The notes below the pieces were generated by a model that searched no databases, was not told the DNA's origin, and saw only the letters and a program-made list of their open reading frames with translations. This document shows, piece after piece, positions 448 to 42,953 of a stretch of DNA of 52,232 nt. A program made the translations under genes and the position numbers. Positions within the stretch are counted from its first letter, which is position 1, and each line of letters starts with the position of its first letter. The stretch spans positions 1-52,232 of the forward strand of contig PFOR01000009.1 of the NCBI GenBank assembly GCA_002792635.1. The letters are read 5' to 3'. This DNA comes from Candidatus Pacearchaeota archaeon CG_4_10_14_0_2_um_filter_35_33. Lineage in GTDB: Archaea > Nanobdellota > Nanobdellia > Pacearchaeales > GW2011-AR1.

Positions 448-573
448 GCGGGGGTTCCGGAGTGGTCAAACGGGCAGGACTTAAGAAGTCTGTCGTTCGT
501 TAGAACGATCTAAAACAGGATTAGGATATCCTGTGGCTTAGTGCCTTCGTAGGTTCGAATCCTACCCCCCGCA
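448..573 (+). tRNA. tRNA-Leu(UAA) with 42-nt archaeal intron (about 486-527) at 37/38
   Basis: GCGGGGG/CCCCCGC acceptor, CAGGA-CTTAAGA-TCCTG anticodon arm after intron removal, TGGCTTAGTGCC variable arm, GTAGG-TTCGAAT-CCTAC T arm. BHB: central helix 480-483/522-525, 3-nt bulges AGA (484-486) and ATA (526-528). Confidence 0.92.
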
Positions 574-575
574 TC

Positions 576-667
576 AATCTGGATTCGAACAGGTTCGAAT
601 ACTTCAGCGAATCCCTGAGCTGAAGTTACCAGGGAACGTAGTTCAATGAGTACCTACCCCCCGCATC
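576..667 (+). other. Post-tRNA element (Leu): hairpin spacer ending in an exact 15-nt copy of the tRNA-Leu 3' end
   Basis: CCTACCCCCCGCATC at 561-575 and 653-667; hairpin ACTTCAGC...GCTGAAGT. Confidence 0.65.
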
Positions 668-24502: not shown

Positions 24503-24588
24503 ACGTCTGCGCTAGGATTCCCGGAGCGTGTAAGCGCGAGGGTGCTACGAAACTTGTTCTGCGAGCACGTTCGAATCCGTAAAAAATA
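24503..24588 (-). other. Post-tRNA element (Ser): hairpin spacer ending in an imperfect copy of the tRNA-Ser 3' end
   Basis: 24503-24520 acgtctgcgctaggattc vs tRNA 24588-24605 acgcctgcgccaggattc (16/18); hairpin GTGCT...AGCAC. Confidence 0.6.
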
Positions 24589-24672
24589 CGCCTGCGCCAG
24601 GATTCGAACCTGGGAATCCACAAGGGAAACGGGATTAGCAATCCCGCGCCGTAACCACTGGGCCACGCAGGC
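24589..24672 (-). tRNA. tRNA-Ser(GCU)
   Basis: GCCTGCG...CGCAGGC acceptor, CGGGA-TTGCTAA-TCCCG anticodon arm, long variable arm, CCAGG-TTCGAAT-CCTGG T arm. Confidence 0.92.
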
Positions 24673-26906: not shown

Positions 26907-26982
26907 AGCGGGGTGGAGCAGTCTGGAGTGCTCACCGGGCCCATAACCCGGAGGTCGCGTGGTTCAAATCCCGCCCCCGCTA
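26907..26982 (+). tRNA. Initiator tRNA-Met(CAU)
   Basis: AGCGGGG/CCCCGCT acceptor (A1-U72), CCGGG-CCCATAA-CCCGG anticodon arm with three G-C pairs. Confidence 0.92.
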
Positions 26983-27069
26983 TATTTGAAGAGATTTTCA
27001 AATACTTTAGTAAGCCTACGAGCTAAAGTTCCCGCGGAACTTGTTCTGCGAGGACCTGCCCCCACTATC
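26983..27069 (+). other. Post-tRNA element (Met): hairpin spacer ending in an imperfect copy of the tRNA-Met 3' end
   Basis: CCTGCCCCCACTATC (27055-27069) vs tRNA end CCCGCCCCCGCTATA; hairpin ACTTTAG...CTAAAGT; homologous to 576-667. Confidence 0.6.
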
Positions 27070-40208: not shown

Positions 40209-42953
40209 TTATTTCCATCTCAATTCTTTACATTTCTTAACAACATGTTCTAATTGCTTTAATGTAAACTTATCTAATGGCCTTTCTTCTGTTAAAGGAT
40301 GTTTAGCTAAATCCTTTAGTTCAATATGCTTTGTCCTAACAAAAACTTCTTTTAATAATCTTAAAAATTTTAATTGCTCGGAGTTGTAATGCTCATTTCT
40401 TGAAAGTACATACTTATCAAATTCCATCTTTATAATCCCTTCAGGATCAGGAAGGTCTTTTAACCCAATTATTTGCCTCAAAAAGATAACAAAATCAACC
40501 TTAAGGATATTCTGCAAATTATCAATAGTCCAAGTAGGATTTAAACCAGAAAGCTTTTTTTCAATCTCTAAGAGTTCATCAGAAGTTACACCTTCACCAA
40601 ACCTAATTTTTTTAATAAGTGAATCTTTTTCTAAAAGCTCAATTAAATCAGGGTTCTCTTTAATCTCGTGCTTTATTTCTTCAACACTTAAAACAATATC
40701 CGGAGCATTTACTCTTAACATCTTTTTCCTGTCCTTTTCGTAATAAATCAATAAAGGGGCTATTTCTCTAATTAAGAAATCAGCATCATCAAAAGTCAAA
40801 TCACCCCAAAACTTATCACCTAAGACTTTTTTCAGTTCATCACTTTTTGCCTGCACAACTTCTAAACCTTTCTCCCAAATGTTCTCAACTCTTTCTTGAA
40901 CAAAATCTTGAACTTTCCAAATCTTATCCTTATCATCTTCTTTTATAGCATCAAATAGCTTAACGCACTGAGATATAAAATAATAAACCTTTGAATTATC
41001 TGTTTTAGAGTAAATCAATAAAGGGGCTATTTCTTCTTTCAATGTTTTTATGTGGTCTTTTAATTCAAACTTTTTAGAAACAACTTTTTTAATAATTGAG
41101 GCTTTCTCCATAACAACAGGAGAATCCATATCAATTGTCTTTATAGTATCTCTAATTTCTTTTTCTAATATTTTTCTTTGCTTATCATCAAGCTTTTTCT
41201 TTAATAAATCAACTTGTTCTAAGAAAATTCTTGTTTTAGCATCCATCACAGCAGATTTAGCCCTTGATTTGTCAAGCTTATGAAAAATTACATTTGAATG
41301 ATCCCCAAACTTAAAATCTAAAATTAAAAAGTTCTCTTTGACATGGATTCCATCTTTTGAAGGCAATCTATCTTTAAATCTACAAGCTTCTAAATTTCTT
41401 GTTCCTCTTCCCAACATCTGCCAAAATCTGATAGGAGAGAAAACAGGCCTTACAAAAACTAAATTACATATTTCAGGAATATCTACTCCAGTATCTAAAA
41501 CACCGACAGATAAAGCAATTCTAGGTTCATCATATCTATCAAATCTTTTAACTTCATCCATATACCTTGACCTATCTGAAGTTATAACCCTCACATCTTT
41601 AGCTAAAACAGGATATAACTTATCAAAGATTTCTTTTAATGAATCAGCATGTTTTACACTAGCACAAAAGAAAATAGTCTTACATGGCCTACCATCATCA
41701 GATTTATAGCAACGATCTACAAATTCTCTAACAATAAGTTCATTTGTTCTGGCATCTGTAAAATACCTCTCAAACCTTGTTCCCGGAAGTTCTGCCACCT
41801 CAGGATTTTCTTCTTGTTCCTTAAGAGCCTGTTTTAAATCCTTAGTTAATTTTGCCCCTTTAATTCCAAGAGTTAAAACTTGAGTATCAATAACATCCGC
41901 AACATAAGGCACTAAAACATTATCATTAACAGCAGTATCATAATCATAAGCAACTGTTGGCTTTTTATATTCACAATCAAACAAATCAAAAGTATCTCTT
42001 GTTTCCTCACTTGAAGGAGTTGCTGTAAGCCCTAATTTTAAACAATCAAAATACTGAAATAAAATATTATTCTTTTCATAAAAAGATCTATGGGCTTCAT
42101 CAAACACAATTAAATCAAATTCTGCAACTCCAAACTTTTCAAACATAGGCCTTTTTCTTTTATTGTCGTCATCGGTAAGAGTTTGAACTGTTGACGTATA
42201 AAGTGTAGCTGTATCTGAAAAACCTTCAACATTCAACTCACAAACAGGATCTGAAAAAAATGACTTAAACCCTCTTTCCTTAGCTTGATTTGATAATGAA
42301 ATCCTATCAACAACAAACAATACATTCTTAACATAACCTGCTTTAATTAAAGCATCAATAATAGCCATAGATACTCTTGTCTTTCCTGTTCCTGTTGCCA
42401 TATTGATTAAGGCAGATCTATGGCCTTTTTCATAATGCTTAAGAATCTGTTTAACTGCTTCTATACTTCTGGCACGATCAACTATTTTTTTATTTAACTT
42501 AACTTGGGAAGGTTTAATCTCATGCTCAAAAAGATATGCTCTTCTATGAAGGTCTTTTTGTGAAAAAGGAAGTAAAACTTTTCTCCTTCTGTCTTTTTGG
42601 TCTATAAAATACCATGTTTCTCCATTAGTGAGAAAAATAGGAATTGTTTTTTTGAGTTTTTTCTCAATATCTTCTTGATAAGTTTTTGCTTGTATCTCCC
42701 CTTTCTTAAAATCTACCGAACTTCTCTTTGCTTCAATAATGGCAAGAGGAGAGTTATTTTCATCTAAAAGCAGATAATCAATAAATCTATCCTTCCCTCT
42801 TTCAACCTTTCCACTAAAAGGAACATACTCTTTAGTTTTAAAATTAGATTTGAGAGAGTTTACTTCTTCCTTAATATATTTCTTCATCCATCCAACTAGC
42901 TCTAGCTTTGGATCTATTATTTTTTTTCTTGTGTCTTTCTCTGATAAGTCCAT
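40209..42953 (-). CDS. hsdR: Type I restriction endonuclease, R subunit
   Basis: PD-(D/E)XK FIDYLLLDENNSPLAIIEAKR, Walker A NMATGTGKTRVSM, DEAHRS, GRGTRN. Confidence 0.93.
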   Translation of the reverse strand: MDLSEKDTRKKIIDPKLELVGWMKKYIKEEVNSLKSNFKTKEYVPFSGKVERGKDRFIDYLLLDENNSPLAIIEAKRSSVDFKKGEIQAKTYQEDIEKKLKKTIPIFLTNGETWYFIDQKDRRRKVLLPFSQKDLHRRAYLFEHEIKPSQVKLNKKIVDRARSIEAVKQILKHYEKGHRSALINMATGTGKTRVSMAIIDALIKAGYVKNVLFVVDRISLSNQAKERGFKSFFSDPVCELNVEGFSDTATLYTSTVQTLTDDDNKRKRPMFEKFGVAEFDLIVFDEAHRSFYEKNNILFQYFDCLKLGLTATPSSEETRDTFDLFDCEYKKPTVAYDYDTAVNDNVLVPYVADVIDTQVLTLGIKGAKLTKDLKQALKEQEENPEVAELPGTRFERYFTDARTNELIVREFVDRCYKSDDGRPCKTIFFCASVKHADSLKEIFDKLYPVLAKDVRVITSDRSRYMDEVKRFDRYDEPRIALSVGVLDTGVDIPEICNLVFVRPVFSPIRFWQMLGRGTRNLEACRFKDRLPSKDGIHVKENFLILDFKFGDHSNVIFHKLDKSRAKSAVMDAKTRIFLEQVDLLKKKLDDKQRKILEKEIRDTIKTIDMDSPVVMEKASIIKKVVSKKFELKDHIKTLKEEIAPLLIYSKTDNSKVYYFISQCVKLFDAIKEDDKDKIWKVQDFVQERVENIWEKGLEVVQAKSDELKKVLGDKFWGDLTFDDADFLIREIAPLLIYYEKDRKKMLRVNAPDIVLSVEEIKHEIKENPDLIELLEKDSLIKKIRFGEGVTSDELLEIEKKLSGLNPTWTIDNLQNILKVDFVIFLRQIIGLKDLPDPEGIIKMEFDKYVLSRNEHYNSEQLKFLRLLKEVFVRTKHIELKDLAKHPLTEERPLDKFTLKQLEHVVKKCKELRWK

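Follow-up and report, generated by a model that had tools for sequence, protein, structure and literature searches.

The initiator tRNA-Met gene of an archaeal contig is followed by a hairpin-forming sequence that resembles the one behind a tRNA-Leu gene of the same contig, which raises the question of what these sequences are and how they came to lie there. The window (the whole 52,232-nt stretch of DNA that was analysed) belongs to a 777-kb, 27-contig draft archaeal genome (G000; 89% complete). An earlier note had proposed that the Leu and Met post-tRNA elements are homologous; the strings it quoted were located at 600-667 for Leu and, once an alignment gap is removed, at 27003-27069 for Met.

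Elements behind tRNA-Leu, tRNA-Met and tRNA-Ser

The features of the two elements, and of an element from another core family behind tRNA-Ser(GCT), are as follows.

448..573, plus strand: tRNA-Leu(TAA), intron-bearing, host of the Leu element (Rfam tRNA match, 44.9 bits)
581..590, plus strand: inverted copy of the Leu T-arm (GGATTCGAAC), exact (pattern match 553-590)
601..626, plus strand: main hairpin of the Leu core (ACTTCAGC...GCTGAAGT) (8-bp hairpin fold; compensatory changes relative to homologues)
653..667, plus strand: direct copy of the tRNA-Leu 3' end (CCTACCCCCCGCATC), 15 nt exact (sequence match)
24589..24672, minus strand: tRNA-Ser(GCT), host of the other core family (tRNA prediction and Rfam)
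24569..24578, minus strand: inverted copy of the Ser T-arm (GGATTCGAAC) (pattern match 24569-24609)
24503..24520, minus strand: direct copy of the tRNA-Ser 3' end, drifted (GAATCCTAGCGCAGACGT) (sequence match; the orthologous Ser tRNA of G002 is empty)
26907..26982, plus strand: initiator tRNA-Met(CAT), host of the Met element (Rfam, 53.1 bits; ARAGORN)
26983..27004, plus strand: hairpin P1 of the Met element, its 5' strand resembling the inverted T-arm and its 3' strand being TTCAAATA (fold)
27004..27029, plus strand: main hairpin of the Met core (ACTTTAG...CTAAAGT) (fold; stem comparison)
27055..27069, plus strand: direct copy of the tRNA-Met 3' end, drifted, 12/15 nt (sequence; alignment)

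The proposed homology was confirmed. Without their last 15 nt, the Leu and Met cores give a local alignment score of 15, against a shuffle maximum of 14 (n=2000, p=0.0005), and a third homologous element, which aligns over its whole length, lies behind tRNA-Leu(CAA) of the same genome. The main stem reads ACTTCAG/CTGAAGT in Leu(TAA), ACTTTAG/CTAAAGT in Met and ACTTAAA/TTTCAGT, with one mismatch, in Leu(CAA); its fifth pair is C-G, T-A and A-T, respectively, in agreement with the compensatory hairpin changes that had been claimed. According to the same note, the last ~15 nt track each host tRNA. This applies to the exact 15 nt of Leu and fails in part for Met, where only 12/15 nt match and the copy has drifted. 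Likewise, the suggested concerted evolution of the 3' copy with its tRNA is met only by fresh copies, which are exact, and later drift is seen at Met, Ser and the Lys element of G001. In contrast to the drifting distal copy, close host tracking is a property of the inverted T-arm copy directly behind the tRNA, which had gone unmentioned and is exact for Leu and matches at ~7/8 nt for Met.

Two other features of this genome were recorded. A gene resembling a type I restriction R subunit (HSDR_N, ResIII, EcoEI_R_C) is found at 40209-42953 on the minus strand of the window. The introns of tRNA-Leu(TAA) (448-573), tRNA-Tyr and tRNA-Ile(TAT) (L032, L019) have a hairpin-like motif in common, GTTCGTTAGA(A/G)C, which is possibly another spreading mini-hairpin, within tRNA genes.

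Common plan, host matching and occurrence

The elements share one order, consisting of the complete tRNA, a spacer of 0-20 nt, the reverse complement of the host T-arm (e.g. GGATTCGAAC), a short strand similar to the T-arm, with which hairpin P1 is closed, then hairpins P2 and P3, and finally the tRNA 3' end again. They measure about 45-200 nt, many of them ~70-85 nt. The distal direct copy spans the T-loop (nt 56-62) to the tRNA end or slightly beyond; its start, mostly at T-loop nt 56, 57, 58, 61 or 62, is uniform inside each core family, and its length is mostly 15-39 nt, sometimes reaching into the trailer. When all 40 Rfam tRNA matches of G000 and the window Leu were read, direct 3'-end copies were found behind Lys(TTT), Lys(CTT), Gln(TTG), Leu(CAA), Leu(TAA), Ser(GCT), Met and Arg(GCG), the last without an inverted part, and Phe, Gln(CTG) and Cys had the inverted T-arm copy only.

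Each tRNA tail was also compared with its own 250 nt downstream. Host-specific direct copies with a score of at least 12 were detected at 5/40 tRNAs in G000, 3/36 in G001, 7/32 in G002 and 17/33 in G019, compared with 0 to 0.13% in first-order Markov shuffles and 0 to 1.1% with the tails of other tRNAs (zero in both controls for G019). Some weaker matches need not be elements, such as that of G002 Gln(CTG), which falls within the adjacent tRNA.

Host matching of the inverted copy was assessed in 26 elements, selected by the direct repeat alone, from four genomes with all tRNAs read. The inverted copy equals its host at both T-loop 57 and 59 in 24 of the 26 (shuffles: mean 7.7, maximum 17). For example, G019 hosts with CGAGT are followed by the inverted copy CTCGAAC, and those with CGATT mostly by ATCGAAC. 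At the level of sequence comparison, the left end of the element is thus shown to be an inverted copy of its own host's T-arm, either host-templated or host-adjusted.

A search for the inverted pattern gave matches in 19 genomes among 58 relatives, with almost none in the reversed control, and in 16 among 160 genomes of the phylum; convergent tRNA pairs (L094, L101), which also match, were excluded. In a scan of named genomes, the tRNA-linked cases among the matches listed come from Pacearchaeota, Nanoarchaeota, Woesearchaeota, Aenigmatarchaeota, Diapherotrites and Thermoplasmata, together with a few bacteria, e.g. Omnitrophota and Jorgensenbacteria. The loci L098, L165, L169, L173 and L183, from Thermoplasmata assemblies, have only an inverted T-arm copy at the same tRNA-Met, conserved across genomes.

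Several single loci were also recorded. At L196, tRNA-Glu(TTC) is followed by two tandem ~115-nt units, which have another core and a repeat whose start lies at T-stem nt 52. A degenerate tRNA-Asp-like sequence (L038:695-756; 27 bits) lies immediately upstream of an intact tRNA-Asp. Long-range tail copies, which might have exposed an autonomous element, are isolated cases (L048 at 1.2 kb, L148 at 3.2 kb), and no transposase or integrase was recognised between the copies by reading translations, without a family search. At L048:1450-2770, the tRNA-Cys 3' half is repeated ~1.2 kb downstream, flanking a methyltransferase-like ORF, and this region is possibly a tiny tRNA-bounded island.

Empty and filled tRNA sites and the reshuffling of cores

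Orthologous tRNAs were compared among three congeneric species (G000, G001 and G002), guided by shared flanking genes; all genomes are draft assemblies, and the comparisons are between species, with no strain-level pair. The gap between Leu(CAA) and Arg(CCT) is 1 nt in G001 and G002 and holds a ~88-nt element in G000. Three further tRNAs differ in state: elongator Met is filled in G001 and empty in G002, Trp has the reverse pattern, and for Ser(GCT) the filled site is that of G000 and the empty one that of G002. The presence/absence comparison that the earlier note had called for thus found both states at four sites. Since the G002 Trp flank past the distal copy resembles the flank of the empty G001 site, the new DNA sits between the tRNA and the old flank. 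The G000 Ser core and the G002 Trp core belong to one family, with compensated stem changes, indicating that a single family has come to occupy different tRNAs in sister species. All three congeners carry the Lys(TTT) element at orthologous tRNAs, with changing stems. For initiator Met, the orthologous G001 tRNA, which has the upstream gene in common, carries no element; the downstream gene differs, so no clean flank comparison is available at this locus.

In G019 the elements are arrays of 1-3 modules, in each of which a hairpin X precedes AGGTCGA-Y-GAGGCC. The types of X and Y are combined in many ways, the modules being reshuffled among tRNAs, and all 15 places hit by a module query in BLAST are at tRNAs; in one genome, about 18 different tRNAs are followed by related, gene-free core modules of ~60 nt. 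Both stems of X covary, the first as GATATG/CGTATC, AATTTG/CGAATT and AGTTTG/CGAACT, the second as TTAC/GTAA and CTAC/GTAG, with fixed GA/GA mismatches. In some cases the distal copy is itself trailed by an inverted copy (L058, L204, L045, G019 Arg and G019 Leu(TAA)), and a second full or partial repeat unit lies behind the first at L045, L046, L204 and L058, being whole at L045 and L046. Such stacked units look like the putative product of repeated insertion or tandem growth.

These comparisons show a hairpin core that separates the tRNA from the flank originally downstream of it, and behind the core a second copy of the host's 3' part that starts in the T-loop (sometimes with trailer bases); because of this duplication the proximal tRNA stays intact. 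They likewise show related cores that are common to different tRNAs of one genome, reshuffled, fixed in orientation and strictly located at tRNAs. The earlier suggestion of insertion or templated copying is supported by the empty and filled orthologues and the host-specific 3' copies, which do not separate the two options.

Candidate explanations and their implications

Our preferred reading, to which we assign a probability of roughly 0.6, is that these sequences were left by a mobile mini-element, non-autonomous and without genes, whose insertion is restricted to the 3' ends of tRNA genes and to one orientation. The filled/empty polymorphism expected of a non-autonomous mobile element is met at Leu(CAA)-Arg(CCT), Trp, elongator Met and Ser(GCT) among the three congeneric species. 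Enzyme-family searches of G000 and its relatives found no autonomous partner or mobilising enzyme.

The main rival, which we regard as unlikely, is a trans-acting transposase or integrase (casposase-like Cas1, tyrosine recombinase or HUH), supplied by a virus, a plasmid or a larger element, that would make staggered cuts in the T-loop and leave a target-site duplication, with the mini-elements as MITE-like passengers. The direct repeats sometimes take in trailer bases, as expected from a staggered cut, and a precedent exists in casposons, which like the elements here target the tRNA 3' end, need a T-loop motif and produce a direct target duplication. The casposase reads the motif TCAAATC, requires it together with terminal inverted repeats, and makes a duplication of 14-15 bp that starts ~8-9 nt downstream of the motif and is flanked by those repeats (PMC6614799). 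Unlike the elements here, casposons are kilobase-sized, carry genes and terminal inverted repeats, and duplicate a sequence outside the T-loop (PMC6614799). The repeats in our elements start inside the T-loop at nt 56-62 and are mostly 15-39 nt, which fits neither the length nor the position of casposon duplications, and no terminal inverted repeats were seen, by inspection only, between the left (inverted T-arm) and right ends of the listed elements. Nor does the enzyme inventory favour this rival: Cas1 was not found in G000 itself (89% complete) and is present in G002 and G019; RVT_1 reverse transcriptase, as a retroelement using target-primed reverse transcription would need, was not found in G000, G002, G004, G016 and G019; Y1 transposase was not found in the element-rich G019 or in G004, G032 and G036 and is present in G000, G001 and G002; and tyrosine recombinase was not found in G035 and G018. 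None of these four enzyme types follows the distribution of the elements. Single absences are weak in drafts estimated to be 77-89% complete; combined, they argue against one resident enzyme. None of the eight viral contigs from the scans carries the module. An inverted T-arm in two viral contigs, at the same bacterial tRNA-Ala sequence, was judged to be chance. Another origin from larger elements, that attL and attR of a tRNA-integrating plasmid or virus were left adjacent after cargo loss, is already disfavoured and seems to us very improbable. The 3' ends of tRNAs are classic attachment sites, and direct copies there are classic integration scars; the duplicated 3' end, a trait of tyrosine recombinase elements, is present here with the tRNA kept whole, and at L048 one such copy lies at a distance of 1.2 kb. 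However, tRNA-targeted integrase elements bear genes and use one or few tRNAs per integrase, whereas here one core family occupies many tRNAs, related gene-free modules stand at about 18 tRNAs in a single genome, each copy matches its own host, and the ~45-200 nt between tRNA and copy are too short for an integrase gene. We know of no attachment-site scheme that includes a host-matching inverted T-arm copy.

It could also be that the trailers are functional host RNAs, serving pre-tRNA processing, quality control or regulation, which were kept and duplicated, with gain and loss being secondary; we consider this improbable. The hairpin stems covary, stem mismatches show an excess of G-T over A-C (12 versus 5) that would fit RNA, and the Lys element is kept in the three congeners, which could mean a host function. 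Yet presence is patchy even among congeners, distal copies drift, the same tRNA carries unrelated cores in relatives, and folding relative to shuffles is equal for the sense (z -2.1) and antisense (z -2.3) strands. A pre-tRNA switch onto the distal copy was also rejected: in minimum-energy folds the tRNA 5' strand favours that copy in 23/25 cases (median 5.1 kcal/mol), but shuffled cores give an equal preference (mean -4.3 observed versus -4.7 shuffled), and the effect is therefore an artefact of topology. On visual inspection, the core did not fit a kink-turn, a C/D-box or a spliceable bulge-helix-bulge, and no Rfam family matches the cores, only tRNA and 5S rRNA being above the cut-off.

Other mobile hairpins offer partial parallels to the mini-element reading. 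REP/BIME arrays and MITEs are likewise short, gene-less, non-autonomous hairpin units in mosaic arrays, but they are not tRNA-confined and lack a host-copied inverted T-arm, and the HUH (Y1) enzyme of REPs, the RAYT transposase, was not found in G019. To our knowledge, no tRNA T-arm specificity has been described for the mobile GC clusters and double-hairpin elements of fungal mitochondria. These, too, are very small mobile hairpins; they fuse and are shuffled, and no enzyme of their own is known (PMC4478555). They differ in being organellar and in their 2-3-bp duplications.

As for how the mini-element might move, all tRNAs share GGTTCRANTCC and T-arm sequence brackets the core, from which we infer that T-arm homology may let the core spread, through template switching or recombination, with a nick or stalled fork at a tRNA gene as a possible starting point. 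The host-matching inverted copy would then be inferred to arise from fold-back copying or quasi-palindrome correction, and the hairpins would presumably aid folding of the copied strand. We offer only tentatively the stronger form of this idea, a replicator made of arrayed, reshuffled hairpin cassettes between duplicated T-arm halves, which would depend on T-arm homology, fold-back copying and the host replication and repair machinery, with no genes and no enzyme of its own. The loci with an inverted copy only (Phe, Cys, Gln-CTG) are not needed by a pure transposition model.

A literature search, for which subscription papers were mostly out of reach, found no description of such elements, and the class is widespread and apparently undescribed. 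Mobile DNA commonly integrates at tRNA genes, and elements at tRNA 3' ends are already known; the gene-less, multi-tRNA, host-copying form is new, and possibly more than that. Annotators of tRNAs should be aware that a hairpin trailer and a false additional 3' half may follow a genuine tRNA. The element is ~70 nt long and without genes, it sits at over half of the tRNAs of one genome, and it writes both direct and inverted copies of its host. If it were a new replicator, it would be a tRNA-confined cassette that moves without an enzyme of its own, and its many natural empty and filled sites provide material on the movement of very small elements in the archaea with the smallest genomes.
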